This document shows, piece after piece, positions 8,017 through 43,013 of a stretch of 64,000 nucleotides of DNA. The number at the start of each line of letters is the position of its first letter. Within the stretch, counting starts at the first letter, position 1. A program made the position numbers and the translations under genes. The notes beneath the pieces are model-generated. The model did not search any database and was not told the origin of the DNA. It saw only the letters and a list, made by a program, of their open reading frames with translations. The stretch spans positions 1-64,000 of the forward strand of contig JAHBZL010000001.1 of the NCBI GenBank assembly GCA_019635485.1. The letters are read 5' to 3'. This DNA is from Piscinibacter sp. (lineage in GTDB: Bacteria; Pseudomonadota; Gammaproteobacteria; Burkholderiales; Burkholderiaceae_C).

Positions 8017-9128
8017 TGAGCGATCGGATCACGCCCCTGGTGATGCCCAAGTGGGGGCTGGAAATGCGCGAAGGCACGATCGGCGCCTGGCTGGTCGACG
8101 AAGGCACGCGGCTCGACGTCGGCACACCGGTGCTCGAGGTCGAGACCGACAAGATCAGCAACGCCGTCGAGGCGCCGGACCCGGGGCTGCTGCGCCGCCG
8201 GGTCGCGCAGGAAGGCGAGACGCTGCCGGTCAAGGCGCTGCTGGGCGTGCTGGCCGAGCCCGAGGTGAGCGATGCGGAGATCGACGCCTACATCGCGGCC
8301 TACGTGGTGCCCGCGGCCGGCGAGGACGAGGCGGAGGCCGGCGAGGCCTACGCCTACGCTGACGTCGACGGCCTGCGCGTGCGCTACGCGCGGCGCGGGC
8401 CGGAACGCGGCGTGCCGGTGCTGTTCCTGCACGGCTTCGGCGGCGACCTGGGCAACTGGCTGTTCAACATCGATGCGCTGGCCGAGGTCGCGCCGGTGAT
8501 CGCGCTGGACCTGCCCGGCCACGGCCAGTCCGACGCGAAGCTGCCGGGGGCGACGCTGCCCGAGCTGGCCACCTTCGTCGCGCGTTTCCTCGACCATCTG
8601 GACGTGGAGCGCGTGCACGCGGTCGGCCATTCGATGGGCGGCGCGATCGCGGCGCAGCTGGCGCGCGACCACGCGCCGCGCGTGGCCTCGCTGGCGGTGT
8701 TCGGCACGGCCGGGCTGGGCGACGAGGTCAACGCGGACTACACCCGCGGCTTCGTCGAGGCGGCGTCGCGGCGCGAGCTCAAGCCGGTGGTCGAACTGCT
8801 GTTCGCCGATCCGTCGCTGGTCAGCCGCGCACTGGTCGACGACCTGCTGAAGTACAAGCGCCTGGACGGTGTGACCGAGCTGCTCGGCACGCTGCAAGGC
8901 AGCCTGTTCGAAGGCGGGCGCCAGGCCGCCGCGCCGCTGCGCGAGCTGCCGGCCGGACTGCCGCTGCTGGTGGTGTGGGGCCGGCAGGACCGGGTGATCC
9001 CGGCCGCGCACGCCGCCCACGCGCCGCCGCACGCCCAGGTCACGGTCTACGACGATGCCGGCCACATGGTGATGATGGAGAAGGCCGGGGAGGTGAACGC
9101 GCTGCTGAAGAAGCACCTCGGGGCATGA
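8016..9128 (+). CDS. acoC: Acetoin dehydrogenase E2: lipoyl domain fused to alpha/beta-hydrolase acetyltransferase
   Basis: 370 residues. The N-terminal lipoyl domain (about 1-80) carries the modified lysine K46 in VETDKISNAVEA. The rest is an alpha/beta hydrolase (LFLHGFGGDLGNW as oxyanion region, nucleophile Ser in GHSMGG, terminal His in DDAGHMVMMEK), which in AcoC replaces the usual E2 catalytic domain and transfers acetyl to CoA. There is no peripheral E1/E3-binding domain. It overlaps acoB by one base and is followed 7 bp later by a lipoate-protein ligase. Confidence 0.93.
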   Translation: MSDRITPLVMPKWGLEMREGTIGAWLVDEGTRLDVGTPVLEVETDKISNAVEAPDPGLLRRRVAQEGETLPVKALLGVLAEPEVSDAEIDAYIAAYVVPAAGEDEAEAGEAYAYADVDGLRVRYARRGPERGVPVLFLHGFGGDLGNWLFNIDALAEVAPVIALDLPGHGQSDAKLPGATLPELATFVARFLDHLDVERVHAVGHSMGGAIAAQLARDHAPRVASLAVFGTAGLGDEVNADYTRGFVEAASRRELKPVVELLFADPSLVSRALVDDLLKYKRLDGVTELLGTLQGSLFEGGRQAAAPLRELPAGLPLLVVWGRQDRVIPAAHAAHAPPHAQVTVYDDAGHMVMMEKAGEVNALLKKHLGA

Positions 9129-9888: not shown

Positions 9889-11811
<1,923 letters not shown>

Positions 11812-14184: not shown

Positions 14185-15105
14185 TCAGGCGGCCCGCAGC
14201 CGCTGCTGCAGCTCGCCGAGCGCCGCATCGAGCAGCTGCACGAACACGCCGGTGGCGACCGCCGGCGTCTGCCCGACGCGCTGGTACAGGCAGATGCGCG
14301 CGGCCGCCTCCGGATCGGCCAGCGGCAGCCAGGCGAGGCGACCGGCGTCGAGGTCCTGCACGACGTTCTCCTGCACCAGCAGGCCGACCAGCGCGCCGCC
14401 GGCGGCCAGCGTGCGCACCATCGCCACCGAGCTGGTCTCCACCACCGGCTGCAGCACGCGCCGCTCGCGCGCCGCGATGCGTTCGGCCAGCAGGCGCAGT
14501 TCCATGTCCGGCGCCGGCAGCACCAGCGGGTGCTCGAGGCAGTCGCGCAGGCGCAGCCGGCCGCCGCGCTGCGCGAGCGGGTGCGACGGTGCGACCACCG
14601 CGCCAAGGCGCTGCTCCCACGAGCGCACCTCCTCGATGCCCGGCGGCGGCGTGCGTTGCAGGCAGAAGGCGATGTCGATCTCGCCGCCGAACAGCGCCTT
14701 CAGCAGCGTCTCGCCGTTGCCGGTGCGCACGCTGTAGGTGATGCCGGGGTACTGGCGCAGCGCGGCCTCGATCACGCCCGGCATCAGCGCCTCGGCACTC
14801 GCGTGCGGCACGCCCAGGTGCACGTGGCCGCGCCGCAGCGAACGCAGCGCCTCGACCTGCGACATCGCGTGGTCGTAGTCGCGCTGGCTGCGCCGCACCG
14901 CGGCGAGCACGATCTCGCCGGCCGCGCTGAGCTGCATGCCGCGCGGCAGCCGGTCGAACAGCGGCGTGCCGACCTGCTCCTCGAAGTTCAGGATCTGCTG
15001 GTGCACCGCCGCCGCGGTCAGGTGCAGCGCGTCGGCGGCACGCCGCACCGAGCCGTGCCGCGCGACGGCGTCGAAGCAGCGGAAGGCCTGGGAGATCGCA
15101 CGCAT
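14185..15105 (-). CDS. LysR family transcriptional regulator
   Basis: 306 residues: winged helix at 1-60 (GSVRRAADALHLTAAAVHQQ) and a substrate-binding-like effector domain from about 90 (GHVHLGVPHASAEALMPGVI). It is divergent from a Bug-type solute-binding protein gene at 15224 and presumably regulates that gene and the transporter and amidohydrolase genes behind it. A perfect inverted repeat at 15122-15142 lies 17 bp upstream of its start. Confidence 0.9.
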   Translation of the reverse strand: MRAISQAFRCFDAVARHGSVRRAADALHLTAAAVHQQILNFEEQVGTPLFDRLPRGMQLSAAGEIVLAAVRRSQRDYDHAMSQVEALRSLRRGHVHLGVPHASAEALMPGVIEAALRQYPGITYSVRTGNGETLLKALFGGEIDIAFCLQRTPPPGIEEVRSWEQRLGAVVAPSHPLAQRGGRLRLRDCLEHPLVLPAPDMELRLLAERIAARERRVLQPVVETSSVAMVRTLAAGGALVGLLVQENVVQDLDAGRLAWLPLADPEAAARICLYQRVGQTPAVATGVFVQLLDAALGELQQRLRAA

Positions 15106-15121
15106 CGCGGGGTGGTGTCGA

Positions 15122-15142
15122 CCGTCAGCAAATGGCTGACGG
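15122..15142. promoter_or_regulatory. Candidate LysR operator
   Basis: CCGTCAGC-AAATG-GCTGACGG is a perfect 8-bp inverted repeat with a 5-bp spacer in the 118-bp space between the divergent LysR and Bug genes. Position and dyad symmetry match a LysR recognition site controlling both directions. Confidence 0.65.
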
Positions 15143-15223
15143 CCCGGCAGAAATTATGAGCTATGCCTGACACTCTGCGAGGCCTAGATTTCGCCCCGTC
15201 GCCCCTCACCGATGGAGTCCCGA

Positions 15224-16204
15224 ATGAAGCTGCTGCCCGCCCTCCTCGCCTCGCTGGCCCTGGTGCCGGCCCTGCTGCCTGGCGCGGCGTTCGCCCAGGC
15301 CTACCCGTCCAAGCCCGTCACAGTCGTGGTTCCGTTCGGCGCCGGCGGCGGCGTCGACGCGGCCGCGCGCATCGCGCTGCCCAAGCTCGGCGAGCGGCTC
15401 GGCCAGACGCTGCTGATCGAGAACGTGCCCGGCGCCTCCGGCACGATCGGCACGCAGCGCGTGATTCGCGCCAAGGCCGACGGATACACCCTGCTGTTCG
15501 CGGTGGCCAGCCCGATCAACGTCGCCCCGCTGGTCTCGCCCGGCGCAGTGCGCTACGACGCGCTGAAGGAGCTGGTGCCGATCGCGCCGGTGGCCGTCTC
15601 GCCCTTCGTGCTGATCGGCCGGCGCGACCTGCCGGCCGCCAGCACCGCCGAGCTGATCCGCCTGGCGCGCAGCCAGCCGGGCAAGCTGACCTACGGCACC
15701 GACGGCATGGGCACCTCGCTGCACGTGACGATGGCGATGATCACGCAGCGCGCCGGCGTCGAGATCCTGCACGTGCCGTACAAGTCCGGCCCGCAGGTGC
15801 TGACGGACGTGGCCGGCGGCATGATCGACCTCGCCGTGGTGCCGCTCGCGCTCGCCCAGCCCTTCGTCGCCGACGGCAAGGTGCGCGCCTACGGCGTGAC
15901 GACCAGGCAGCGTGCCGCGGCCCTGCCCGGCACGCCGAGCCTCGCGGAGACGGCCGAGCTGGCCGGCTTCGACGTCGAGTCCTGGCTCGGCCTGCTCGGC
16001 CCGGCCGGGCTGGACCCGGCGGTGACCGCACGGCTGTCGAAGGAGGTCGGCACGCTGCTGGCCGACCCGGCGGTGGTCAAGGCGCTCGCCGAGGGCGGCA
16101 TGAAGCCGCTGCAGCTGTCGCCGGCCGAGTTCGCCGCCTACCTGGCGCGCGAGAAGAAGAGCCTCGGCGAGGCGATCGCCGCGGCCGGCATCCGGATCGA
16201 GTGA
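15224..16204 (+). CDS. Bug-type (tripartite tricarboxylate transporter) periplasmic solute-binding protein
   Basis: 326 residues from the ATG at 15224, chosen because GGAG lies eight bases upstream; an in-frame ATG at 15212 has no such site. A signal peptide ends near AFAQA. The body begins YPSKPVTVVVPFGAGGGVDA, the hallmark of the Bug/TctC family, and continues with GASGTIGTQRVIRAKADGYT. It should bind a small carboxylate or amide in the periplasm. No tctA/tctB membrane genes are adjacent, which is common for this expanded family in Burkholderiales. Confidence 0.92.
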   Translation: MKLLPALLASLALVPALLPGAAFAQAYPSKPVTVVVPFGAGGGVDAAARIALPKLGERLGQTLLIENVPGASGTIGTQRVIRAKADGYTLLFAVASPINVAPLVSPGAVRYDALKELVPIAPVAVSPFVLIGRRDLPAASTAELIRLARSQPGKLTYGTDGMGTSLHVTMAMITQRAGVEILHVPYKSGPQVLTDVAGGMIDLAVVPLALAQPFVADGKVRAYGVTTRQRAAALPGTPSLAETAELAGFDVESWLGLLGPAGLDPAVTARLSKEVGTLLADPAVVKALAEGGMKPLQLSPAEFAAYLAREKKSLGEAIAAAGIRIE

Positions 16205-16208
16205 GGCG

Positions 16209-16934
16209 ATGGGCGCCGCCGTGATCGCCCTGCTGCTGGTCGCCGGCCTGGCGGTCGGTGCCACCAGCATCGGCGGCGTCCTCGTCGTACCGGTGCTGAC
16301 CTCCGGCGCCGGCAGCGCCCCGTCCCATGCGGTGGCCGCCTCCAGCTTCGCGTTCGCCTTCAGCGGCCTGGCCGCGTTCGCGACCGCGGCACGCGAACCC
16401 TCCGCCGGTGCGGGCCGCGCCGGCTGGCCGCTGCACGGCGGCGCGCTGCTCGGCGCCGCGCTCGGCGCGCTGACCCTGGCCTGGCTACCGGCCGGCGCGG
16501 TGCGCACCGGCGTCGGCCTGCTCGCGGTGGCCTCCGGCCTGTATGCCCTGCTCGGCCGTCGCGCTCCGCGCGACGATCCCGCCGGCGCGCCGGCCCGCGG
16601 CACGCTCGCCGCGCTCGGGCTGGCGGTCGGCTGCGGTTCGGCCTGGTCGGGCACCGGCGGGCCGGTACTGCTGCTGCCGCTGGTCACGCTGGCCGGCTGG
16701 CCCGCCGGCGAGGCCGTCGCCGCGGCGCAGCGCATCCAGTTGCCGGTGGCCCTCGCCGCCACCGCGGTCCACCTGGCCGCCGGGCGGCTCGACCTGATGC
16801 TGGGCGCGACGGTCGGCGTGCTCGTGCTGGCCGGCTGGGCCGCCGGCCGCGCGCTCGCCCGCCGCCTGCCGATGGAACGCCTGCGGCAGGCCGTGGCGCT
16901 GGCGCTGATCGCCACCGGCCTGTGGTACCTGTGA
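16209..16934 (+). CDS. TSUP (TauE/SafE) family membrane transporter
   Basis: 241 residues with about seven to eight hydrophobic segments and the repeated small-residue motifs of the TauE/SafE family (VGATSIGGVLVVPVL near the N-terminus, CGSAWSGTGGPVLLLPLVTL in the second half). It starts 4 bp after the solute-binding protein gene and is probably in its operon. Members export or import sulfonates, sulfite or organic anions; the substrate here is unknown. Confidence 0.85.
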   Translation: MGAAVIALLLVAGLAVGATSIGGVLVVPVLTSGAGSAPSHAVAASSFAFAFSGLAAFATAAREPSAGAGRAGWPLHGGALLGAALGALTLAWLPAGAVRTGVGLLAVASGLYALLGRRAPRDDPAGAPARGTLAALGLAVGCGSAWSGTGGPVLLLPLVTLAGWPAGEAVAAAQRIQLPVALAATAVHLAAGRLDLMLGATVGVLVLAGWAAGRALARRLPMERLRQAVALALIATGLWYL

Positions 16935-30710: not shown

Positions 30711-32507
30711 TTATCGGAGGAGACAAAAGGGCGGCACGCCTGCATATGAGCAAGTCCGCGTCATCGCCGTCAAGCTATGCCAGTTCTCGCCCCTCCAGCG
30801 TCCGTGATCGCAGACTGTCAACCTATCGCTCGACGAAGCCCTTCGCGGCGCGGCGCACCAGCGCAACATCACCAGCTGCAAGGGCGTCAAGCGGTGTCCG
30901 ACCTCCAAGTGAACCTTTGGGTGTGGTGAAAAACTGCAGCTTGCTCCCGCCTGGCAAACTGCCCAACACTTGGCATCCACCTCGGCCCTGGGCACGCCGC
31001 CCACCAGGTGCGCACGCACGTCGTGCGGCTCGGGCGGAGGCGCGTTGTCTGCGTAGCGCCGGATATTCAGGTTGTAGCCGTTGGCCTTGAGCGTGCCGGT
31101 GTCGACGATGGCCGAGAACGCCGGCACGGCGCGGAATTCGTCGAACGTGGTGACGATCTTCTCGATGTGCTCGGGCAGCAGGTAGTTCTGTGCGCGGCCT
31201 TCGAAGTACTCGCGGTCGGCATTGATGAACAGCACCTTGCCTTGGCGCTCCGCCGGCTTGCCACTGATGCGCTGGGCGCCGTTCTGCACCCGCTGGCGCA
31301 GCACCAGGATGCAGGCCGGGATGCCGGTGCCGTAGAACAGGTTGGGCGCGACGCCGATCACGGCTTCGAGCAAGTCTTCCTCGATGATGCCGGCGCGGAT
31401 CTTCGCCTCGTCGCCGCCACGGAACAGCACGCCGTGCGGCATTACCGTAGCCACCATGCCGCCGTCGCGCGTGACGGCCAGCATGTGCTGCAGGAACATC
31501 AGATCGGCCTTCTTGGCGCCCAGCGGTACCTGGCCGAAGCGGAAGCGGTCGGACGCAAACTTGGGCTTCCAGGCCGGGTTGCCGTCGGCGTCCTTTTCGG
31601 TGTTACCCCAGTTGATGGAGAACGGCGGGTTGGTCAGCACCCGGTCGAAGTGCATCAGTTCGCCGTTCTCCACATGCTGCGGCTCGGCCAGCGTGTCGTC
31701 GTTCTGCAGGTTTGCGTTGCTGATGCCGTGCAGCAGCATGTTCATCTTGGCGATGGACCACACCGTGCCGTTGAATTCCTGCCCGAACAGGTTGGCCTTG
31801 CGGCCATCCTGCCCGTGCTCGTCGATGTACTCCTTCGCGGCGATCAGCATGCCGCCGGAACCGCAGCAAGGGTCGTAGATGTCGTGCGCCAGCGTGGGCT
31901 TGAGCAGCCGGACCATCATGCGGACGATGGAGCGGGGCGTGTAGAACTCCCCGCCCTTCTTGCCGGCGGAATCGGCGAACTCGCCGATGAGGTATTCGTA
32001 GGCGGCACCCAGCAGGTCCGGGAACTCGAAGTCCTCGTTGCGCAGGCGATGCTTGCCGAAGTGGGTGATCAGCTCCTGCAGCTTCAGGTCGGAGATCTTG
32101 CTCTGGCCAACCTTGCGGTTGAAGTCGATGTGCTCCAGTACGTCGTACAGACTGGTGTTCTCGCCCTCGATGCTGGCCAGCGCCTTGCTGAGCATGGAGC
32201 CGACATTCGCCTGGCGCGAGTTGTCCACCAGATAGCTGTAGCGCGCCTCTTCGGGAACCCAGAAGTAGCCGTCGCGCGTGTACCAGCGCTTGTTGTTGGT
32301 TGACGCCTCGGCCTCGGCCTTGGTCTTTCCGCCCTCCATCTCGGAGCGGATCACCTCCTCACGGCGCTGCTCGAACACGTCGGAGCAGCGCTTGAGGAAC
32401 AGCATGCCGAAGATGTATTCCTTGAACTCCGAGGCGTCCATCTTGCCGCGCAGGATGTCAGCGGCTTTGAAAAGGTGGCGTTCCAGCTGGGGAAGGGTCA
32501 GTGGCAT
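30711..32507 (-). CDS. hsdM: Type I restriction-modification methyltransferase subunit HsdM, C-terminally truncated and fused to foreign sequence
   Basis: The first 513 residues are a good HsdM: N-terminal helical domain ([20 protein letters not shown]), SAM-binding motif I DPCCGSGG from 212, and catalytic NPPF at 293-296. From about 30968 the frame carries 85 residues with no HsdM similarity, because the DNA there belongs to another gene read in a different frame (30823-30972). The usual continuation after the EVDAK segment is missing, as are hsdS and hsdR. A lone HsdM cannot choose a target, so it is probably inactive. Confidence 0.85.
30823..30972 (-). pseudogene. 3' remnant of an antitoxin-like gene (DUF2384/MbcA-type tail)
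   Basis: In the frame ending at the TAG at 30825-30823 the DNA encodes about 49 residues including [20 protein letters not shown] and [20 protein letters not shown], resembling the C-terminal toxin-binding part of Xre/MbcA/ParS-type antitoxins. The 5' part is absent; hsdM sequence replaces it. It marks the right side of a deletion or recombination junction near 30968. The family assignment is tentative. Confidence 0.5.
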
Positions 32508-32555: not shown

Positions 32556-33326
32556 TCAGGCGGCGCTGCTTGGCGCGGCAGTCACTTCGGCGGCCGGTAT
32601 GGCCAGGGCCACGCTCCAGTGCCCGCCGGGCTCCTGGCGCAGGTCGAGCAGATCGTAGGTCTTGAGCATGCTGACCAGGCCGGAGTGGCCGTAGGTTTGC
32701 GGCGAGAATGAGGGGTCGGTACGTCGGAGGTAAGAGCCCAGGGCGCTGACGCTGACTCGTCCATCGGGGGACTCCGCCGCCACCAACTTCACCGCACTGA
32801 CCACTGACTTGGGTCGAAGCTTGGGTTTGGGCTGGGCTGGCGGCTTGGCGGGCTGCGGCGCGGCATCTGCCGGCTGCGCTGCCTCCGGCGGCACCCACTG
32901 AAAGAACTGGTCGCTGGCGTTGCGCAGTGCCTCGGGCGTCTTGGCCTCGCCGATGACATGAACCGTGGCGCCACGCTCGCGCAGCTTGCGGCACAGGCCC
33001 GCGAAGTCAGAGTCGCTGGTGACCAGGCAGAAGGTGGTGGCTCGCTGATCGAACAAGGCCTCGATGGCATCCATCGCCAGGGCGATGTCAGAGGTGTTCT
33101 TGCCGGCCGCATACGCGTACTGCAGGCAGGGCGTGAAGGCCTGCTGCACCAGCACGGTCTGCCACTTGTTGGCCAGGGCCGTGTGGCTGCCGAAGCCACG
33201 GCGCAGCACCACGCGGCCGAACTGGGCCGCCACGCGCAACGCGTAGTCAAGGATGTCTGGATCTGCGTTTTCGCAGTCGACCAGCACGGCGACTCTGGTG
33301 TCGAACTCCCCCGAATTCGGTTGCAT
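32556..33326 (-). CDS. NYN-domain RNase-like protein with C-terminal OST-HTH/LOTUS domain
   Basis: 256 residues, ATG at 33326 with GGGAGA upstream. Residues about 10-145 are a NYN (PIN-like, LabA/DUF88) domain with acidic active-site positions D17 (VDCEN), D80/D86 (NTSDIALAMDA) and D105/D107 (TSDSDFAG). A Pro/Lys linker leads to an OST-HTH/LOTUS domain (about 175-245), an RNA-binding fold. Such proteins are predicted endoribonucleases. It lies 48 bp upstream of hsdM on the same strand, suggesting co-transcription. Confidence 0.85.
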   Translation of the reverse strand: MQPNSGEFDTRVAVLVDCENADPDILDYALRVAAQFGRVVLRRGFGSHTALANKWQTVLVQQAFTPCLQYAYAAGKNTSDIALAMDAIEALFDQRATTFCLVTSDSDFAGLCRKLRERGATVHVIGEAKTPEALRNASDQFFQWVPPEAAQPADAAPQPAKPPAQPKPKLRPKSVVSAVKLVAAESPDGRVSVSALGSYLRRTDPSFSPQTYGHSGLVSMLKTYDLLDLRQEPGGHWSVALAIPAAEVTAAPSSAA

Positions 33327-33436
33327 GGCGTCTCCCTGGTCCGCTTGTCGCTGCGCTGCCGTGGTCGACCAACAATGTCGGACGGCTCGCACTGTGAGCG
33401 GTTGTGTCGCCCATGTTAGCCAAGGGTAGAACCAGA

Positions 33437-34249: not shown

Positions 34250-34324
34250 TGGCGCGACCGGCAGGAATCGAACCTGCGACGTAGCCTTCGGAGGGCTGCA
34301 TGATATCCACTTCACCACGGTCGC
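34250..34324 (-). tRNA. tRNA-Arg (anticodon CCG), CCA encoded
   Basis: Read on the minus strand from 34324: acceptor GCGACCG, D-arm, anticodon loop CTCCGAA with anticodon CCG, T-arm GCAGG-TTCGATT-CCTGC, acceptor return CGGTCGC, discriminator G and encoded CCA at 34252-34250. All stems pair apart from the outermost anticodon-stem pair. It decodes CGG. Its 3' end is the boundary of the genomic island. Confidence 0.9.
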
Positions 34325-34352: not shown

Positions 34353-35750
34353 TCACATGACCGTCGCGTGCGGGTGCTGGGGGTGCTCGAGCGTGTCGGC
34401 GATGAGGCGCAGCGCATGCTCGCAGTCGGCCCGGGAGAGCGGCCCGCCGAGGCAGATGCGCACGGCGTCGGGCGGATCCGCATCGGTCGCGAAGGCCGCG
34501 CTGGCCACCACGGCGACGCCCTGTGTGCGCAGGTAGGACGCGAACTCGACCACGCTCCAGCTCGATGCCAGCGGCAGCCAGAGGTGGAAGCCTTCGGGCT
34601 GCGCCAGCACGCGGTGCTCGGCCAGGTGGCGCGCGGCGAGCGCCTGGCGCGCCTCCGATTCGCTGCGGATCGCCTCCAGCATCGCCCACGCCGTGCCGTC
34701 GGTGACCCAGCGCGTGGTCAGCGCGTTGGTCAGCGGCGAGGACATCACCGTGATCGCGCGCAGCGCGCCGGCCAGCCGCTGCGCCAGGCGTTCGTTGGGC
34801 GCGCAGACGTAGGCGCTGCGCAGCCCGGCGCCCAGGCACTTCGAGAAGCCGGTGACGTAGTAGGTGAGGTCCGGCGCCAGCAGCGCGAGCGGGCTGGGCG
34901 CGTTGCGCGGCAGCAGCGCGTAGGCATCGTCCTCGATGATGGGCACGCTGTAGCGCAGCGCGACGTCGGCCAGCGCCTCGCGCCGCGCGCGCGTGGTGGT
35001 GAGCGTGGTCGGGTTCTGCAGCGTCGGGTTCAGGTACAGCGCCTTCGGCTCCAGCGTGCGGCAGGCCTGCTCGAACTCGGCCGCGCACGGCCCCTCGTCG
35101 TCCAGCGTCAGCGGGTGCAGCTGCACGCCGAGCTGCGTGGCGATCGCCTTCAGCCCCGGGTAGGTGAGCGATTCGGCGCAGATGGTCTCGCCCGGCCGCG
35201 CCAGCTGCGAGATCAGCGCCGCCAGCGCGCTGTGGATGCCGGGGCAGACCAGCACACGTGCCGCCTGCACGCCGGGCAGGAGCGGGCGCAGCCAGAAGGC
35301 GCCGGCTTCGCGGTCGGCCGCACTGCCGCCGAAATCCTGGTAGCGCAGCAGCCCGTACAGGTCGGCGCGCGCCATCAGCTCGGCGGCGCTGTCGTGCAGC
35401 CGCGCCAGCAGCGCCGGATCGTCCGGCTCGGGCGGCAGGTTCATCGTCATCTCGGCGCCGCTGCCGCCGCGCAGCGGCAGCGTCGGGCGCAGGCCGCGGA
35501 CGTGCGTGCCCATGCCGGGGCGCGAGTCGATCAGGCCGCGCTTGCGCGCCTCGGCGTAGGCGCGCGCCACGGTCGTGTAGTTCAGCTGCAGGTCCTCGGC
35601 CAGCTCGCGCAGCGTCGGCAGCCGGTCGCGCGGTGCGAGCCGGCCGCTGCGCAGGTCCTCGGCGATCAGGTCGGCGATCGAGCGGTAGGCGGGCTGATCG
35701 CTCGCGGCGATGCGGCGGCGCCAGTGGGCGGTGGACTTGATCGCGGGCAT
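34353..35750 (-). CDS. MocR/PdxR-type regulator: GntR helix-turn-helix fused to aminotransferase-like domain
   Basis: 465 residues. The N-terminus is a GntR winged helix (PAYRSIADLIAEDLRSGRLA, LPTLRELAEDLQLNYTTVAR). The remainder is a fold-type I aminotransferase domain with PLP lysine in VTGFSKCLGAGLRS and TLQNPTTLTTTRAR. MocR proteins use PLP and an amino compound as effectors. It is divergent from the Nit1C cluster, with an array of TTGATCG repeats between, one pair of which overlaps its own start codon. Confidence 0.9.
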   Translation of the reverse strand: MPAIKSTAHWRRRIAASDQPAYRSIADLIAEDLRSGRLAPRDRLPTLRELAEDLQLNYTTVARAYAEARKRGLIDSRPGMGTHVRGLRPTLPLRGGSGAEMTMNLPPEPDDPALLARLHDSAAELMARADLYGLLRYQDFGGSAADREAGAFWLRPLLPGVQAARVLVCPGIHSALAALISQLARPGETICAESLTYPGLKAIATQLGVQLHPLTLDDEGPCAAEFEQACRTLEPKALYLNPTLQNPTTLTTTRARREALADVALRYSVPIIEDDAYALLPRNAPSPLALLAPDLTYYVTGFSKCLGAGLRSAYVCAPNERLAQRLAGALRAITVMSSPLTNALTTRWVTDGTAWAMLEAIRSESEARQALAARHLAEHRVLAQPEGFHLWLPLASSWSVVEFASYLRTQGVAVVASAAFATDADPPDAVRICLGGPLSRADCEHALRLIADTLEHPQHPHATVM

Positions 35751-35994
35751 TGATCGGATGAGCAGGCGGATTCGGGTCATTGATTGCATGTCGCGTGCCC
35801 GATCGGGGCCGCAGCGCCGGCCCAGCGGCGCCCTGCGCCGGTGCAGTGCGGCCCCTTGATCGGAGGCATTGATCGCATCGCGTGGCCTCGAAGCGGTGCG
35901 CCACGCCGGCAGCTGCCGAGGCTCGTTCGCGCCCCGTCCGGTCTTGACGCGGATCAGGACGCGCCGCTGCACGGGCTTGATCGGCACTTGATCG
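35737..35994. promoter_or_regulatory. Array of paired TTGATCG direct repeats between the MocR gene and the Nit1C cluster
   Basis: Six TTGATCG copies form three pairs: 35737/35750, 35856/35869 and 35977/35988, with starts 13, 13 and 11 bp apart. A variant TTGATTG lies at 35780. The pairs repeat about every 120 bp. The shared pattern is TTGATCGG-GGCA-TTGATCGCAT. The first pair straddles the MocR ATG; the last is 83 bp upstream of the first Nit1C gene. MocR regulators bind direct repeats, so this is a probable operator set. The 326-bp space 35751-36076 holds no gene. Confidence 0.7.
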
Positions 35995-36076
35995 CATCCG
36001 CGCGCGGCGGCGGTGGCACGGCCGATGCAAAGAGAAGGCTGCGCGCGTCACCACCCCCTTCTTCACGGAGCCATCC

Positions 36077-36562
36077 ATGCCGAAAGTCACCAAGCCCGCG
36101 AACCAGAAAGGCGAGTTCCTCGTCGACTACGAGGAGAAGGTCTTCGAGGACGTGAAGTCCACGACGCCCGGCGAGAAGGCGCTCGTCACCTTCCACACCG
36201 TGGCCTTCGAAGGCTCGATCGGTTTCGTCAACCTGCTGCAGGCGACCCGGCTGCAGCGCAAGGGATTCGACACCTCGATCCTGCTGTACGGCCCGGGCGT
36301 CACGCTGGGCGTCAAGCGCGGCTTCCCGACGCTGGGCGACGAGGCCTTCCCCGGCCACCTGAACTTCAACAAGCAGATCGAGAAGTTCATCGGCGAAGGC
36401 GGCAAGGTCTACGCCTGCCGCTTCGCGCTGCAGGCGCTGTACGGCCACGGCGAGCCGTCGCTGATCGAAGGCGTCAAGCCGATCAACCCGCTGGACGTGC
36501 TGGACTGCATCCTGCTGCACCGCCGCGAGGGCGCGTTCATCCTCAACACCTGGACGCTGTGA
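36077..36562 (+). CDS. MSMEG_0572/Sll0783 family nitrogen starvation response protein
   Basis: 161 residues, preceded by GGAG. A DsrE-like fold is suggested by [20 protein letters not shown] and [19 protein letters not shown]. It is the first gene of a conserved eight-gene cluster (Nit1C). The Synechocystis homologue Sll0783 is induced by nitrogen starvation and is needed for polyhydroxybutyrate accumulation. Its biochemical role is unknown. The stop is 2 bp before the nitrilase start. Confidence 0.88.
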
Positions 36563-36564
36563 CC

Positions 36565-37572
36565 ATGGCGCGTGTCGTCCGTGCCGCCGCGGCCCAGATC
36601 GCGCCCGATCTGGACTCGGCCGACGGCACGCTCGCGAAGGTGCTCGGCACGATCGGCGAGGCCGCCGCGCAGGGCGTGCAGCTGATCGTCTTCCCCGAGA
36701 CCTTCGTTCCGTACTACCCGTACTTCTCGTTCACCCGGCCGCCGGTGGCACAGGGCGCCGAGCACTTGAAGCTGTACGAGCGCGCCGTCGCGGTACCCGG
36801 CCCGGTCACGCAGGCGGTGGCGGCCGCGGCGCGCGAGCACGGCATGGTCGTCGTGCTCGGCATCAACGAGCGCGACCACGGCAGCCTCTACAACACGCAG
36901 CTGGTGTTCGATGCCGACGGCGCGCTGCGCCTGCAGCGCCGCAAGATCACGCCGACCTACCACGAACGCATGATCTGGGGGCAGGGCGACGCGAGCGGCC
37001 TGAAGGTGGTGGACACCGCCGTCGGCCGCCTCGGCGCACTGGCCTGCTGGGAGCACTACAACCCGCTGGCGCGTTACGCGCTGATGGCGCAGCACGAGGA
37101 GATCCACGCGGCGCAGTTCCCGGGCTCGATGGTCGGGCAGATCTTCGCCGACCAGATGGAGGTGACGATCCGCCACCACGCACTGGAGTCCGGCTGCTTC
37201 GTCGTCAACGCGACCGGCTGGCTGAGCGACGCGCAGATCGCCCGGATCGAGCCGAACCCCGACCTGCAGAAGGCGCTGCGCGGCGGCTGCTGCAGCGCGA
37301 TCGTCTCGCCCGAGGGCGTGCTGCTCGCGCCGCCGCGGCGCGAGGGCGAGGGGCTGGTGGTCGCCGACCTCGACCTCGCGCTCGTCACGAAGCGCAAACG
37401 CATGATGGATTCGGTCGGCCACTACGCCCGGCCCGAGCTTTTGAGCCTGCACATCGACGACCGGCCGTCCGCGACGGTCACCCGCTGGAGCGACACCCAT
37501 GGACTACCCGACCTCTCCGCCGAGCCGGCAGTTGATGACCGAGCTGCAGTCCTTCGGGTTGCGGCTGGCTGA
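36565..37572 (+). CDS. Nit1 nitrilase of the Nit1C cluster
   Basis: 335 residues. Carbon-nitrogen hydrolase catalytic triad: E45 ([12 protein letters not shown]), K127 ([12 protein letters not shown]) and C161 (ACWEHYNP). The CWEH after the Cys is typical of true nitrilases, which convert nitriles to acids and ammonia. In cyanotrophic bacteria the orthologue is part of a cluster needed to grow on cyanide as nitrogen source. The last 24 codons overlap the radical SAM gene in another frame. Confidence 0.9.
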
Positions 37573-38626
37573 CGCGCAGACCGCAGCCGCCGGCGTGGCC
37601 AGCCGGCGCGGCGGCGCGGGGCCGTCGGACCACAAGGCCGTCACCGTCGACGGCCACACGATCATGGTGCCGGTGCACACCGGCAGCGCCTTCGCGTCGC
37701 CCTACGTCGCGCAGGCGCCGGACGCGGCCGGCCGCAGCACGGTGTTCAAGGGCAGCATCCCGATCGCGCAGATCGAGTTTCCACACTCGCCGCGCTTCTA
37801 CAAGCTGCAGACGCTGGAGGGCGTGCCCTATTCGCAGATCGCGACGCTGCACGGCGCCGACGTGCTCGCCACCACGGTGCTGCAGACCTGCATCCGCTAC
37901 GAGAGCCGGCGCAAGGCGTGCAAGTTCTGCGCGATCGGCCAGTCGCTCGCGGCCGGCCGCACCATCGCGCACAAGACGCCCGAGCAGCTCGCCGAGGTGG
38001 CGCGCGCCGCGGTGCTGCTGGACGGCGTGAAGCACATGGTGCTCACCACCGGCACACCCCCCGGCAGCGACCGCGGCGCCCAGGTGCTGGCCGACAGCGC
38101 GTTCGCCATCAAGGCCGCGCTGCTGCCGCACGTGGACCTGCCGATCCAGGGCCAGTGCGAACCGCCCGACGACGACGCGTGGTTCGAGCGCATGCACCGC
38201 GCCGGCATCGACACGCTGGGCATGCACCTCGAGGTGGTGACCCCGGCGCTGCGCGAGCAGATCATGCCGGGCAAGGCGAGCGTGCCGCTGCACCGCTACA
38301 TGACGGCCTTCGAGGCCGCCGTGAAGGTGTTCGGCCGCGGCCAGGTCAGCACCTACATCCTGGCCGGGCTCGGCGACACGCCCGAAACCATCCTCGCCAC
38401 CTGCGAGCGCCTGCTCGCGCTCGGTGTCTATCCGTTCGTGGTGCCCTTCGTGCCGATCTCCGGCACGCCGCTGGAGGACCACCCGGCGCCCAGCCCCGAG
38501 TTCATGAAGGCGCTGCTGGAGCCGCTCGGCGCGATGGTCGGGGCGGCCGGGCTGCGCTCGTCGGACATCAAGGCCGGCTGCGGCAAGTGCGGCGCGTGTT
38601 CGTCGCTGTCGGTCTACGAGACCTGA
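37499..38626 (+). CDS. MSMEG_0568 family radical SAM protein (Nit1C)
   Basis: 375 residues from the ATG at 37499; an in-frame ATG at 37535 is also possible. Both starts lie inside the nitrilase gene. The iron-sulfur cysteines are spaced C131-x9-C141-x2-C144 rather than the usual CxxxCxxC. A second cysteine group (C361, C364, C367) ends the protein. The core resembles biotin/lipoyl synthase-like radical SAM barrels ([36 protein letters not shown]). The reaction is unknown. Confidence 0.9.
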
Positions 38627-38648
38627 ACCCGAAGCGCAGGAGCCGGCC

Positions 38649-39233
38649 ATGCTCAGCACCGAATCGATCTGCGAACTCGACGCCGCCTTCGTGCCCTGCG
38701 AGTTCCGCGTCAAGTGGGCCGACAGCGGCTGGGAGATCGCGCAGGCGCGCGCGCTGCGGCGCGCGGTGTTCTGCGCCGAGCAGGGCGTGTTCGAGGGCGA
38801 CGACCTGGACGCCCTCGACGCCCGGGCGCAGACGCTGGTGGCGGTGTCCGCGCTCGGCGGCATGCCCGACCAGGTGGTCGGCACGGTGCGCATCCACGCC
38901 GCCGAGGACGGGCCGGCGCACGACGACGACCCGGCGGGCGTCTGGTGGGGCTCGCGGCTGGCGGTGGCCCCGGCACTGCGCAAGCACGGCCACCTCGGCG
39001 CCGGGCTGATCCGCCTGGCGGTCAGCAGCGCGCACGCGCGCGGCTGCCGGATGTTCCTGGCCCATGTGCAGAGCCAGAACGTGCCGCTGTTCGAGAAGCT
39101 GCACTGGCGCGCGCTGCGCGCCGAGACGCTGCACGGCCGGCCGCACCACCTGATGCAGGCCGACCTGGCGCACTACCCGCCCTGCCACGACCCGCTGACC
39201 GGCTTCGTCACCGGCGGCCGGCGCGGCGCCTGA
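38649..39233 (+). CDS. MSMEG_0567/Sll0786 family N-acetyltransferase (Nit1C)
   Basis: 194 residues. A GNAT fold with an N-terminal ALRRAVFCAEQGVFEGDDLD similar to autoinducer-synthase-like acetyltransferases, and the acetyl-CoA segment SRLAVAPALRKHGHLGAGLI. It sits 22 bp after the radical SAM gene, with AGGAG before the ATG. In some genomes this domain is fused to the next gene, the AIR-synthase-like protein. Substrate unknown. Confidence 0.88.
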   Translation: MLSTESICELDAAFVPCEFRVKWADSGWEIAQARALRRAVFCAEQGVFEGDDLDALDARAQTLVAVSALGGMPDQVVGTVRIHAAEDGPAHDDDPAGVWWGSRLAVAPALRKHGHLGAGLIRLAVSSAHARGCRMFLAHVQSQNVPLFEKLHWRALRAETLHGRPHHLMQADLAHYPPCHDPLTGFVTGGRRGA

Positions 39234-39241
39234 GGGCGGCC

Positions 39242-40228
39242 ATGGGCGGGCTCGCCGAGCTGTGCGCGTCCCTGCGCGCCGGGCGCGGCTTCGCGCACAA
39301 GGGCGACATCGCCGGCGTGCTCGGCACGCTGGAGGAGGCCTGGCCCGGCGGCAGCGCCGGCATCGCCAACGGCGACGACTGCGCCGCGCTGCCCGACGGC
39401 GACGGCCACCTGCTGTTCGCGATCGAGGGTTTCCTCGACGACTTCGTGCAGGCCCAGCCGTGGTTCTCCGGCTGGTGCGGCGTGATGGTCAACCTGAGCG
39501 ACATCGCCGCGATGGGCGGCCGGCCGCTCGCGGTGGTCGATGCGCTGTGGAGCCCGGGCGCCGAGCCGGCCCAGGCGGTGCTGCAGGGCCTGGCCGCGGC
39601 GGCGCGCCACTACGGCGTGCCGGTCGTCGGCGGCCACAGCAACTGCCGCGCGCCGCGCGCCGGGCTGGCGGTGGCGGTGCTCGGCCGCGCGCAGCGGCTG
39701 CTGACCAGCTTTGCCGCGCGCCCCGGCGACACGCTGGTAATGGCCATCGACCTGCGCGGGGCCTACGAGGGCGAGCAGCCGTTCTGGAATGCCGCCACGG
39801 GTGCGCCGCCGGAACGCGCCCGCGCCGACCTCGCGCTGCTGCCGGCACTCGCCGAGGCCGGCCTGGCCGACGCGGCCAAGGACATCAGCATGGCCGGCGC
39901 CGCCGGCACGGCGCTGATGCTGCTCGAAGGCTCGGGCGTCGGCGGCACGCTCGACGTCGACGCGATCCCGCGCCCGGCCGGCGTGCCGCTGCTGCGCTGG
40001 CTACAGACCTTCCCGAGCTTCGGCTTCGTGCTCGCGCTGCGCCCGGCCCGGGTCGATGCGGTGCTCGAGCGCTTCGCGGCGCGCGGCATCGCGGCCGCAC
40101 CGGTCGGCGAGGTGCATGCGGCGCGCCGGCTGGTCCTGCGGCGCGGCGACGAGCAGGCGCTGCTGTGGGACCTGGACGGGCAACCGTTCGTCGGCGCGCG
40201 GCCCACCCCGGAGCCGGCCCATGCCTGA
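39242..40228 (+). CDS. MSMEG_0567/Sll0787 family AIR-synthase-like protein (Nit1C)
   Basis: 328 residues. It has the PurM/ThiL/SelD fold: ANGDDCAALPDGDG near the N-terminus, VNLSDIAAMGGRPLAVVDAL, and a glycine-rich VVGGHSNCRA. Proteins of this fold bind ATP and activate amides or phosphates, so an ATP-dependent step on a nitrile- or amide-derived intermediate is possible. It starts 8 bp after the acetyltransferase and overlaps the glycosyltransferase by 8 bp. Confidence 0.88.
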   Translation: MGGLAELCASLRAGRGFAHKGDIAGVLGTLEEAWPGGSAGIANGDDCAALPDGDGHLLFAIEGFLDDFVQAQPWFSGWCGVMVNLSDIAAMGGRPLAVVDALWSPGAEPAQAVLQGLAAAARHYGVPVVGGHSNCRAPRAGLAVAVLGRAQRLLTSFAARPGDTLVMAIDLRGAYEGEQPFWNAATGAPPERARADLALLPALAEAGLADAAKDISMAGAAGTALMLLEGSGVGGTLDVDAIPRPAGVPLLRWLQTFPSFGFVLALRPARVDAVLERFAARGIAAAPVGEVHAARRLVLRRGDEQALLWDLDGQPFVGARPTPEPAHA

Positions 40229-41408
40229 GACCCTGCCCGCGTCGTTGCGGATCGGCCTGCTGACGCATTCGGTGAACCCGCGCGGCGGTGTCGTGCACAC
40301 GCTGGAGCTGGCGCGCGCGCTGCATGAGCTCGGCCACCGCGTCACCGTGTTTGCGCCGGCCGCTCCGGGCGAGGAGTTGTTCCGCGCCACACCGCACGAG
40401 GTGGACCTGGTCCCGGTGCCGCCGCCGCCGAAGGCGCTGGCGGATCGCGTCGGCGAGCACATCGAGGCGCTGCGCGCGCACCTCGCGCGGCGGCTGGAAA
40501 GCGAGTCCTTCGACATCCTGCACACGCACGACGGCATCGGCGGCAACGCGCTGGCCGACCTCGTCGACGCCGGCCGCATCGACGGCTTCGTGCGCACCGT
40601 GCATCACCTCGACCCGTTCGAGGACACGCGGCTGGCCGCCTGGCAGGCGCGCTCGGTGCAACGCGCGCGGCAGGTGCTGTGCGTCAGCCCCGGCTGGTGC
40701 ATGACGCTGAAGCGCGAGTTCGGCATCGAGGCCGCGCTGGTCAGCAACGGCGTCGACTGCGAACGTTTCCAGCGCACGCCCGGCCCGCGCGACGCGGCGC
40801 TGCGGCGCCACTTCGCGCTGCGGCCCGGGGCGCCGCTGTACCTCGCGATCGGCGGCATCGAGGCGCGCAAGAACAGCGTGCGCCTGCTCGAGGCCTTCGT
40901 GCGCGTGCGCGACGAACATCCCGCTGCGCAGCTGGTGATCGCCGGCGGCGCCAGCCTGCTCGACCACAGCGCCTGCTGGCGCGACTTCCATGCGCTGGCC
41001 GCCGAGGTCGGGCTGGTCGCCGGGCGCGACCTGGTGCTGACCGGCCCGCTGCTGGACGACGACGTGCCGCCGCTGCTGCGCTGCGCCGACGCGCTGGTGA
41101 TGCCCTCGCTGCGCGAGGGCTTCGGCCTGGTCGTGCTGGAGGCGCTGGCCTGCGGCACGCCGGTGGTGGTGTCGGGCATCCCGCCCTTCACCGAGTACCT
41201 CGAGGAGGCCGCGATCGACGGCCACGCGCTGTACGCCGACCCGCACGACACGGCCTCGATCGCTGCGGCGATGCGGCGCGCGGTCGACCCGGCGCGCGCG
41301 CGTTCCCTGGCCGCCGCGGTGCCGCCGGTGTGCCGGCACTACAGCTGGCCGGCCAGCGCGCAGCGCCACCTCGCGCTGTACGCGGCCCTCCTGCATCCGA
41401 CCCCCTGA
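40221..41408 (+). CDS. MSMEG_0565 family glycosyltransferase (Nit1C)
   Basis: 395 residues, GT-B fold, family 4-like: N-terminal GLLTHSVNPRGGVVHTLELA and the C-terminal nucleotide-sugar site PSLREGFGLVVLEALACGTP with the EX7E pattern. It overlaps the AIR-synthase-like gene by 8 bp. The sugar and acceptor are unknown. Its presence suggests the pathway makes a glycosylated product or handles a glycosylated nitrile. Confidence 0.9.
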   Translation: MPETLPASLRIGLLTHSVNPRGGVVHTLELARALHELGHRVTVFAPAAPGEELFRATPHEVDLVPVPPPPKALADRVGEHIEALRAHLARRLESESFDILHTHDGIGGNALADLVDAGRIDGFVRTVHHLDPFEDTRLAAWQARSVQRARQVLCVSPGWCMTLKREFGIEAALVSNGVDCERFQRTPGPRDAALRRHFALRPGAPLYLAIGGIEARKNSVRLLEAFVRVRDEHPAAQLVIAGGASLLDHSACWRDFHALAAEVGLVAGRDLVLTGPLLDDDVPPLLRCADALVMPSLREGFGLVVLEALACGTPVVVSGIPPFTEYLEEAAIDGHALYADPHDTASIAAAMRRAVDPARARSLAAAVPPVCRHYSWPASAQRHLALYAALLHPTP

Positions 41409-41418
41409 AGGAAACCCG

Positions 41419-41703
41419 ATGCCCGAGATGCACTTCCGCGTCCGCTGGCCGGACGGCAGCGAGGACCGCTGCTACTCCCCGTCCCTGGTGATCCGCGACT
41501 ACTTCCAGCCCGGTGCCGCCTACCCGCTGCCGGACTTCCTGCAGCGCAGCCGCGAGGCACTGACCATCGCCTCCGAGCGGGTGCGCGCCAAGTACGGCTA
41601 CGCCTGCTCGATGGCGCTGGACCAGCTCGCGCTGATCGAGGCCCAGGCGGGCCGCTTCGAGACGCAGCCGCAGGCGCGTGTCGAGGTGCTCGACTTCGAT
41701 TGA
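41419..41703 (+). CDS. MSMEG_0570 family nitrogen starvation response protein (Nit1C)
   Basis: 94 residues with AAGGAAA upstream of the ATG. It is a small soluble protein with the family pattern MHFRVRWPDGSEDRCYSPSL and a helical C-terminus. It has no known function and is found only in this cluster. It lies 10 bp after the glycosyltransferase gene and 11 bp before the flavoprotein gene. Confidence 0.88.
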   Translation: MPEMHFRVRWPDGSEDRCYSPSLVIRDYFQPGAAYPLPDFLQRSREALTIASERVRAKYGYACSMALDQLALIEAQAGRFETQPQARVEVLDFD

Positions 41704-41714
41704 TCGGACCGACC

Positions 41715-43013
41715 ATGACCCAAGCTCCCGAACACCATGAAGTGATCATCGTCGGCGCCGGCCAGGCCGGGCTGTCGCTGTCGTACTACCTGCAGCAGCG
41801 CGGCATCGACCACGTCGTGCTCGAGAAGCACCGGCCGCTGCACGTCTGGCGCGAACGCCGCTGGGACAGCTTCTGCCTGGTCACGCCGAACTGGCAGTGC
41901 AAGCTGCCCGGCTGGGACTACACCGGCGACGATCCGCACGGCTTCATGAAGAAGGACGAGCTGGTCGCCTGGCTGGACGGCTTCGAGCGCCACGTCGCCG
42001 CGCCGGTGCGCAGCGGGGTCGCGGTGCAGCGCGTCGCGCCGGCCGCGGCCGGCGGCTTCGACGTGCTCACCTCGGACGGCGCGCTGCACGCCGACCAGGT
42101 GGTGGTCGCCTCCGGCGGCTACCACACGCCGATCGTGCCGCGCTGGGCCGAACGGCTGCCGGCGGACGTCGTCCAGCTGCACTCCGAGCAGTACCGGCAC
42201 GCGGGCCAGCTGCCCGAGGGCGCGGTGCTGGTGGTGGGCTGCGGCCAGTCCGGCGCGCAAATTGCCGAGGACCTGCACCTGGCCGGCCGGCGCGTCGTGC
42301 TCGCCACCGGCAACGCGCCGCGCTGCGCGCGCTTCTACCGCGGCCGCGACGTGGTCGACTGGCTGGCCGACATGGGCTACTACGACATGCCGGTGCACGA
42401 GCACCCGCTGCGCGAGGGCGTACGCGACAACACCAACCACTACGTGACCGGCCGCGACGGCGGGCGCGACATCGACCTGCGCCAGTTCGCCCGCGAGGGC
42501 ATGCAGCTGTACGGCTCGCTGCAGGGGCTGGATGGCGAGCAGCTGCAGTTCGCGCCGGACCTGCGCGAGCACCTGGACCAGGCCGACCGCATCTACAACG
42601 GCATCAACGCCTCGATCGACCAGTACATCGCGCGCCAGGGCATCGACGCGCCGGCGCCGGGCGCCTACGCGCCGGTCTGGCAGCCCGACGCCGAGCGGAC
42701 CCGGCTGTCGCTGCGCGAGGCGGGCATCGGCAGCGTCGTCTGGTGCATCGGCTTCGCGCCCGATTTCTCCTGGGTCGACGGGCCGGTCTTCAACGGCCGC
42801 GGCCAGCCCGGCCACCGGCGCGGCGTCAGTGCCCAGCCGGGGCTGTACTTCCTCGGGCTGCCCTGGCTGTACACCTGGGGATCGGGCCGGTTCTCGGGCG
42901 TCGCGCGCGACGCGCTGTACCTGGCCGAGCAGATCGAGGGCCGGCGCACCCAGCCCCCTATAATTCGCGGGTTTTTGCGCTCCGAGAGCGCTCCGAACCC
43001 GAGGATTTCATGA
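41715..43013 (+). CDS. MSMEG_0569 family flavin-dependent oxidoreductase (Nit1C)
   Basis: 432 residues. FAD-binding Rossmann motif [17 protein letters not shown] at the N-terminus, a second dinucleotide motif [17 protein letters not shown] in the middle (NADPH), and a C-terminal [14 protein letters not shown]. It resembles flavin monooxygenases (FMO/CzcO type). It is the last gene of the cluster. The final 18 or so codons contain the promoter of the following cytochrome gene and look non-conserved. Confidence 0.9.
42959..42964 (+). promoter_or_regulatory. Perfect TATAAT -10 element for the cytochrome c gene
   Basis: TATAAT occurs 45 bp before the ATG at 43010, inside the 3' end of the flavoprotein gene. 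No strong -35 hexamer is seen 17 bp upstream (GAGGGC). A bare consensus -10 is rare in this GC-rich DNA, so a promoter here is likely. Confidence 0.6.

Follow-up and report, generated by a model that had tools for sequence, protein, structure and literature searches.

The Nit1C Locus and Its Divergent MocR Gene

We analysed a 64,000-nucleotide stretch of DNA from Piscinibacter sp. (NCBI GenBank assembly GCA_019635485.1, contig JAHBZL010000001.1, positions 1 to 64,000 of the forward strand; hereafter the window). It carries a complete Nit1C gene cluster, a divergent gene for a MocR-type regulator and, from the start of that gene across the gap between the two, an array of TTGATYG boxes beside a predicted sigma-54 promoter. 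The eight Nit1C genes occupy 36077-43013 on the plus strand in the canonical order, with small gaps or overlaps, as assigned with NCBIfam profiles. An earlier note on this stretch, made from its letters alone, had described a complete, ordered and tightly spaced eight-gene cluster; this is borne out, since each of the eight products exceeds its own curated NCBIfam cut-off. The genes are as follows.

34353..35750, minus strand: mocR, 465 residues from the ATG at 35750; regulator with a GntR winged helix-turn-helix (wHTH) and an aminotransferase-like domain, divergent from nit
36077..36562, plus strand: nitB, MSMEG_0572/Sll0783 family; TIGR04044, 278 bits, cut-off 110
36565..37572, plus strand: nitC, Nit6803-family nitrilase; TIGR04048, 572 bits, cut-off 502.6
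37499..38626, plus strand: nitD, MSMEG_0568 family radical SAM protein; TIGR04043, 580 bits, cut-off 304
38649..39233, plus strand: nitE, MSMEG_0567/Sll0786 family N-acetyltransferase; TIGR04045, 223 bits, cut-off 68
39242..40228, plus strand: nitF, sll0787 family AIR-synthase-like protein; TIGR04049, 456 bits, cut-off 321 (scanned from 39233; ATG at 39242)
40221..41408, plus strand: glycosyltransferase gene, MSMEG_0565 family; TIGR04047, 489 bits, cut-off 260 (scanned from 40218; first Met at 40221)
41419..41703, plus strand: nitG, MSMEG_0570 family; TIGR04042, 139 bits, cut-off 80
41715..43013, plus strand: nitH, MSMEG_0569 family flavin-dependent oxidoreductase; TIGR04046, 679 bits, cut-off 498

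The nitC product is a Nit6803-type nitrilase whose best PDB match is 3wuy (497 bits), and for the Sll0783-family product of nitB the PDB matches, taken up to E = 1, did not rise above chance. The Nit1C cluster itself is an already known kind of cluster.

Alignment with homologues makes the ATG at 35750 the most likely start of mocR. The product combines Pfam domains GntR (PF00392) and Aminotran_1_2 (PF00155), and its wHTH and aminotransferase-like domain with a pyridoxal 5'-phosphate (PLP) lysine place it in the MocR/GabR subfamily. The description in the earlier note, a divergent MocR/PdxR-type regulator, therefore holds for the orientation and the MocR-type domains but not for PdxR, membership of which is rejected at 156.9 bits against the NCBIfam NF052282 cut-off of 320. 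Membership among the EhuR/EnuR ectoine regulators is likewise rejected (389.1 bits against the NF052286 cut-off of 480).

A quick maximum-likelihood tree was built from 114 of 122 MocR segments (more than 300 residues, no stops). All 98 MocRs from Nit1C loci fell, together with three others, into a single clade of 101 rows with an SH-like approximate likelihood ratio test (SH-aLRT) support of 99. The three additional rows (L140-L142) belong to genomes in which Nit1C is present but mocR is not its immediate neighbour, and the four own-genome MocR paralogues in the tree lie outside the clade. Deep placements are unsure because of long branches, as the tool warned. In the PLP pocket, K304, N246, D274, Y277 and R311 do not vary across the 101 clade rows, and R431 is kept in all 89 rows that are ungapped at that position (12 are gapped); the pocket roles of these residues are ones that we presume to carry over from aminotransferases.

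Box Array and Predicted Promoter Elements between mocR and nitB

Seven TTGATYG boxes are spread across the mocR start and the 326-bp mocR-nitB gap, beginning at 35737, 35750, 35780 (TTGATTG), 35856, 35869, 35977 and 35988. Six of them form three pairs with periods of 13, 13 and 11 bp, and one stands alone. The first lies within the mocR reading frame, the second touches the mocR start codon and the other five are wholly in the gap. The candidate regulatory elements, in order of position, are listed below.

35737..35756, plus strand: putative MocR box pair 1, TTGATCG twice with a 13-bp period, covering the start codon and initial codons of mocR
35780..35786, plus strand: lone TTGATTG box that overlaps the -12 element of the sigma-54-like site on the mocR strand
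35785..35800, minus strand: tentative sigma-54-like -24/-12 site towards mocR, 10/12 letters, its -12 element overlapping the box
35830..35845, no strand assigned: NtrC-like site, GC-N8-GGTGCA, degenerate left arm
35856..35875, plus strand: putative MocR box pair 2, period 13 bp, flanked by the two NtrC-like sites
35885..35900, no strand assigned: NtrC-like site, GC-N8-GGTGCG, degenerate left arm
35977..35994, plus strand: putative MocR box pair 3, period 11 bp; its boxes start at -38 and -27 relative to the initial G of the sigma-54 GG
36014..36029, plus strand: predicted sigma-54 promoter of the nit operon, TGGCACGGCCGATGCA, 11/12 consensus letters

The paired pattern TTGATYGN{4,6}TTGATYG has four matches in the Piscinibacter sp. 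assembly (5.0 Mb, 84% complete), three of them at this locus, and the reversed control pattern has none there. Pair 1 is also present in the corresponding loci L002 and L003. Across 69 mocR-nit intergenic regions, CGATCAA on either strand occurs 212 times, in 61 regions, against 7.75 copies expected from a first-order Markov model. The paired TTGATCG repeats that had been noticed earlier between mocR and the cluster are thus real and exceed chance on both counts.

Association of the Boxes with MocR across Genomes

Among the best 80 of 571 confirmed Nit1C places, chosen by similarity, 75 have a relative of the window's MocR: 68 divergently within 1.5 kb (a listing that also counts the window), six downstream of nitH and one about 4 kb upstream. 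The remaining five are L042 (at a contig end), L044 (Elainella), L071 (Polyangiaceae), and L074 and L076 (Rhizobium). We also surveyed an even sample of genomes. The Sll0783 cut-off was passed by 4 of 369 genomes in the window's class (its own included), three with MocR within 1.5 kb and one without, and by 15 of 399 in the window's order (again with its own), 14 with MocR within 1.5 kb and the fifteenth with it about 2 kb away. The order of genome G365 gave 24 of 390, comprising 19 with MocR and five with the putative sigma-54 activator NitA. In the class of genome G764, 10 of 385 passed, nine with MocR nearby and the tenth, G764 itself, with MocR 0.77 Mb off.

Promoters were compared at 135 loci after dropping 5 duplicates (106 beta- or gammaproteobacterial, 26 alphaproteobacterial and 3 others, according to record titles and search origin). 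Of the 97 beta- and gammaproteobacterial loci with MocR, 95 have one or more forward copies of TTGATYG within 400 bp and 93 have two or more, as against none of the six such loci with NitA (Fisher p = 2e-8, to be read as optimistic). L071, in the group of others, has a NitA-like gene upstream and no TTGATYG box. Neither regulator was called at three beta- or gammaproteobacterial loci: L042 (contig end, five boxes), L109 (three boxes, MocR about 2 kb away) and L136 (no box). A MocR search at E <= 1e-40 in five NitA genomes returned only 32-34% matches in G1050, G971 and G953, which lie outside the row set of the tree, compared with 45% and 51% for the two positive controls; at the same threshold there was no match in the NitA genomes G994 and G1088, nor in G085, the genome of L136.

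Relocated regulator genes provide a second kind of comparison. In all six loci L006-L011, mocR has its place downstream of nitH; even so, the boxes and the sigma-54 site stay before nitB, and no box occurs within 400 bp before the relocated mocR. Two Rhizobium genomes, G764 among them, have no MocR within 10 kb, and boxes are still found upstream of nit. In alphaproteobacterial loci the box tends towards TTGACTG or TTGAATG, and there the MocR helix differs too: among 12 rows compared, the DNA-binding segment is LNYTTVARAY for the window, as against IDFTTVARGY in the Rhizobium rows. CAGTCAA, the reverse complement of TTGACTG, has 32 copies against 0.8 expected in 22 alphaproteobacterial regions, three of which repeat others.

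Taken together, the pairing of box and MocR across genomes is well supported at the level of sequence. The earlier idea that the repeats serve MocR fits these patterns: they co-occur with the regulator, remain at nit when mocR has moved and are absent from NitA loci, as its operator would be expected to behave.

One locus combines both regulator types. On a Loktanella salsilacus plasmid (L098), a divergent MocR and a NitA-like sigma-54 activator (7387-8748 and 14672-16525) stand around one Nit1C cluster. It is the sole one of the 135 loci called with both MocR and NitA, and it has one TTGATTG.

Sigma-54 Promoter Geometry and Proposed Nitrogen Input

Sigma-54 promoters have a GG-N10-GC core within TGGCACG-N4-TTGCA, and TGGCACGGCCGATGCA contains this core. 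A site of at least 9/12 letters on the nit strand occurs in 69/69 mocR-nit intergenic regions, against 9.4 expected (maximum 14 in 40 shuffles), and lies 52-110 bp before the nitB start in every one. Such a site is present in 96 of the 97 beta- and gammaproteobacterial MocR loci; sites of NitA loci score 8 to 10. Measured from the first G of the GG in these 96 loci, a box starts at -38/-37 in 72 and at -27/-26 in 70, with both positions occupied in 56 and either in 86; the window's boxes at 35977 and 35988 take exactly -38 and -27 from G 36015. On the mocR strand, a sigma-54-like site of at least 9/12 letters was found in 50/69 regions, and only 35/69 have it within 200 bp of the mocR start.

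The NtrC enhancer consensus is the palindrome GCAC-N7-GTGC. Its relaxed form GC-N8-GGTGCR, two copies of which flank box pair 2 in the window, gave 65 sites in 49/69 regions, where 7.1 would be expected (no more than 15 in any of 50 shuffles), and GC occupied the palindromic offset in 65 of 154 GGTGCR sites, compared with 8-30 at ten other offsets. The strict palindrome was found in 16/69 regions against 1.3 expected, though not in the window, and at least 11/14 letters of a longer consensus in 11/69 against 2.6 expected. RpoN and NtrC are both encoded in the Piscinibacter sp. genome, above cut-off. Only partial matches to an Acinetobacter NitA occur in this 84% complete assembly, none of them spanning the sensor part and the AAA+ domain. 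The predicted sigma-54 promoter and the NtrC-like sites point to nitrogen status as a main input, to which MocR would add a second one specific to the pathway.

Proposed Regulation and Alternative Explanations

Genome comparison establishes the cluster, the MocR clade, the co-occurrence of box and MocR, the sigma-54 element and the near-constant box-promoter geometry. The reading that we favour on balance is that the nit1C sigma-54 promoter is turned on by nitrogen starvation and gated by a dedicated MocR acting on the TTGATYG boxes. Nitrogen control would come from the NtrC-like sites and the sigma-54 promoter, with NtrC as the likely enhancer-binding protein. MocR would bind the direct-repeat boxes. 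Occupying pair 3, just upstream of the site of sigma-54 polymerase, and pair 2, between the NtrC-like sites, it could provide pathway-specific gating, and autorepression could act through the boxes that cover its own start codon and promoter region. MocR would then most likely repress its own gene and co-activate nit1C in a ligand-dependent way, in the manner of GabR on gabT. We infer both the regulatory sign at nit1C and the PLP ligand, presumably a cyanide adduct or an amino acid of the pathway. The PLP-amine sensing suggested earlier is possible, and on the analogy of the MocR-type MpaR (PMC10790758) a PLP-cyanide adduct is an equal candidate. The regulatory model of the earlier note thus survives in its real Nit1C cluster and in the repeats as probable MocR operator, but not in the PdxR assignment, and it had overlooked the sigma-54 promoter and the NtrC-like sites.

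Several observations weigh against this reading or parts of it. Two of the 97 beta- and gammaproteobacterial MocR loci do not fit, L104 with a reverse box only and L116 with a co-directional MocR and no box. In the even alphaproteobacterial sample, the TTGATYG form appears in just 2 of 9 MocR loci, and the shift to other box forms in this class is a reading made after the fact. Alphaproteobacterial promoters have a sigma-54 site in 20/26 cases and none that was recognised in 6/26 (the MocR loci L094, L095, L096, L098, L099 and L202); MocR control therefore need not involve sigma-54. A divergent sigma-54 promoter for mocR is a tentative prediction, its score being inflated by the box within the -12 element. 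As regards nitrogen, the left arms of both NtrC-like sites in the window are degenerate, no region of the 69 reaches 12/14 letters of the full NtrC consensus, and the NtrC part of the model is weaker because relaxed sites occur in just 5 of 19 gammaproteobacterial MocR loci. Finally, the Fisher and shuffle statistics ignore shared ancestry, which makes their p-values optimistic; because the shuffle tests ignore common descent, regulator swaps and relocations outweigh the p-values.

The most serious alternative, unlikely in our estimate but well within range, casts MocR as a plain repressor: sitting on pairs 2 and 3, it would make the DNA loop or bend and so keep the enhancer-binding protein from sigma-54 polymerase, until a ligand (a nitrile, an amino acid or a cyanide adduct) frees the DNA. 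Several spaced box pairs would suit a DNA loop, and the divergent MocR of strain CECT5344 is described, with the proteomic part given as unpublished data, as a repressor of the cio cluster (PMC8567248), a description that also counts against the co-activator role. However, pair 3 does not cover the polymerase site but precedes it at a near-fixed distance, more typical of activation, and the cyanide-responsive MocR-type regulator MpaR is needed for expression of its target (PMC10790758). It is very improbable that some other factor binds the boxes and that MocR is just a frequent neighbour. Box and MocR could have been co-inherited with the cluster, but the boxes are absent where NitA replaces MocR and kept where mocR has been relocated, and in alphaproteobacteria box and MocR helix differ together. 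That the repeats are a chance, selfish or nucleoid element, as the shortness of the motif might suggest, has a probability close to nil: three of the four own-genome pairs lie here, 212 copies stand against 7.75 across the 69 regions, and the spacing to the promoter is near-fixed. Chance origin is rejected by the two counts.

Beyond gating by nitrogen and MocR, a bolder idea, which we consider rather unlikely, is that the Nit1C-MocR clade consists of direct cyanide or nitrile sensors. PLP would capture cyanide, or an aminonitrile or amino acid derived from it, and the loaded regulator, on direct repeats of one helical turn at a set place upstream of the -24 element, would license transcription by NtrC and sigma-54. 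This would be a PLP-based AND gate, evolutionarily interchangeable with the sigma-54 activator NitA.

Cluster Function and Genes after nitH

Pseudomonas mutants link nit1C to growth on cyanide (PMC11049912, PMC8567248), and going by such mutants of other strains, the nitrilase would free ammonium from cyanide-derived nitriles. A different view holds that Nit1C is mainly biosynthetic, making an acyl-derived nitrogen-containing metabolite, with cyanide use as a side activity of the nitrilase. The radical SAM, acetyltransferase, glycosyltransferase and oxidoreductase genes do resemble a multi-step pathway. We surveyed the 74 loci, the window's among them, whose sequence extends 1.5 kb or more beyond nitH. 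The gene that immediately follows nitH is LnmK/Pnap_2097-like in 30 of them, and 10 of those 30 (L056, L057, L062, L065, L066, L068, L070, L072, L077 and L080) have a methylmalonyl-CoA-mutase-like gene following it; two Acetobacteraceae loci have an acyl-CoA-ligase-like gene there. Scans of one representative of each accessory gene passed the cut-offs of TIGR04099, TIGR04098 and methylmalonyl-CoA mutase. These genes hint at acyl-CoA chemistry around Nit1C, and the LnmK/Pnap_2097-like and mutase-like pair is a possible metabolic extension. Against a mainly biosynthetic role, 41 of the 74 loci, the window among them, have none of these accessory genes (L012, with just a 26% ligase match, was kept out of the 41), and nit1C is reported to be essential for growth of CECT5344 on cyanide (PMC11049912). 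We regard the biosynthetic view as doubtful. What follows nitH in the window is a small cytochrome-c-like open reading frame (ORF), below cut-offs, and none of the accessory genes named above.

The two Acetobacteraceae clusters, L095 and L096, are on plasmids and end in an AMP-binding protein, which in L096 is nearest to propionate--CoA ligase, below the cut-off. More broadly, the first Nit1C gene was matched on 515 plasmid records, 374 of them from Klebsiella (match counts).

Surroundings of the Cluster

A tRNA-Arg (CCG) gene lies directly after mocR at 34250-34324 on the minus strand. The same tRNA occupies that place in Piscinibacter caeni (L002) and P. defluvii (L003), and none was found in the loci of 8 other relatives scanned; it may mark a lineage-specific insertion site. 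Further along the minus strand are a gene for a protein with NYN and OST-HTH/LOTUS domains (32556-33392), near the cluster, and an ORF for an HsdM-like type I methyltransferase (30711-32507; 226 bits against a cut-off of 243, the last 100 residues outside the match). On the plus strand, 9889-11811 encodes a regulator with GAF, sigma-54-activator and Fis-type helix-turn-helix domains, some 22 kb ahead of position 34353, where mocR ends.

Significance and Comparison with Known Systems

If the favoured reading is true, most sampled proteobacterial Nit1C clusters are run not by NitA but by a PLP-type regulator whose operator is readable and adjoins a sigma-54 promoter. Experiments on the Nit1C signal, whether nitrogen starvation, cyanide or an amino compound, would become direct, and the regulator's ligand would offer a route into Nit1C chemistry and a candidate part for a cyanide biosensor.

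A link between MocR and Nit1C, or a coupling of MocR with sigma-54, was not found in our searches of open-licence papers; it may stand in Jones et al. 2018 or Estepa et al. 2012, which are cited as the main papers on Nit1C, or in supplements. The available parts of PMC11049912, PMC8567248, PMC5333837, PMC10138600, PMC13021748, PMC6318355 and PMC5320631 tie no MocR to Nit1C, and the main text of PMC5320631, supplement aside, lacks the words nitril, COG0388, radical SAM and sigma54. Jones et al. 2018 is said to list Nit1C in 270 bacteria (PMC6318355).

The betaproteobacterial clusters described by Podar et al. 2005 (PMC1199592) have the same genes in the same order; in Burkholderia and Rubrivivax these include the glycosyltransferase gene, placed after the AIR-like gene and before the small one. 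That first study of the cluster reported no conserved sites upstream of it, whereas a MocR box array and a predicted sigma-54 promoter were found here. The nit1C of Pseudomonas pseudoalcaligenes/oleovorans CECT5344 (PMC11049912, PMC8567248, PMC5333837, PMC10138600) shares the gene families, an upstream regulator in opposite orientation and the sigma-54 logic. The Pseudomonas papers name NitA, a putative sigma-54 activator, as its regulator, and NitA-type loci in our comparison have no TTGATYG box; the MocR of CECT5344, a strain compared by description only, is tied to the cio cluster instead (PMC8567248).

Among MocR-type regulators, MpaR (PMC10790758) and the cio-cluster MocR (PMC8567248) likewise combine a GntR wHTH with a PLP-type fold and are tied to cyanide responses. 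MpaR is described as a cyanide-dependent activator for which PLP-cyanide has been hypothesised as ligand. Compared by description, it needs the palindrome ATCTGAT (PMC10790758), whereas the present locus has TTGATYG in direct pairs next to a predicted sigma-54 promoter. GabR, TauR, PdxR and EhuR/EnuR (PMC5320631) share the MocR architecture and the use of direct repeats with the present system, but the repeats of GabR, TauR, PdxR and EhuR are two or three helical turns apart, whereas those before nit1C recur every 11-13 bp and stand beside predicted sigma-54 and NtrC-like elements.

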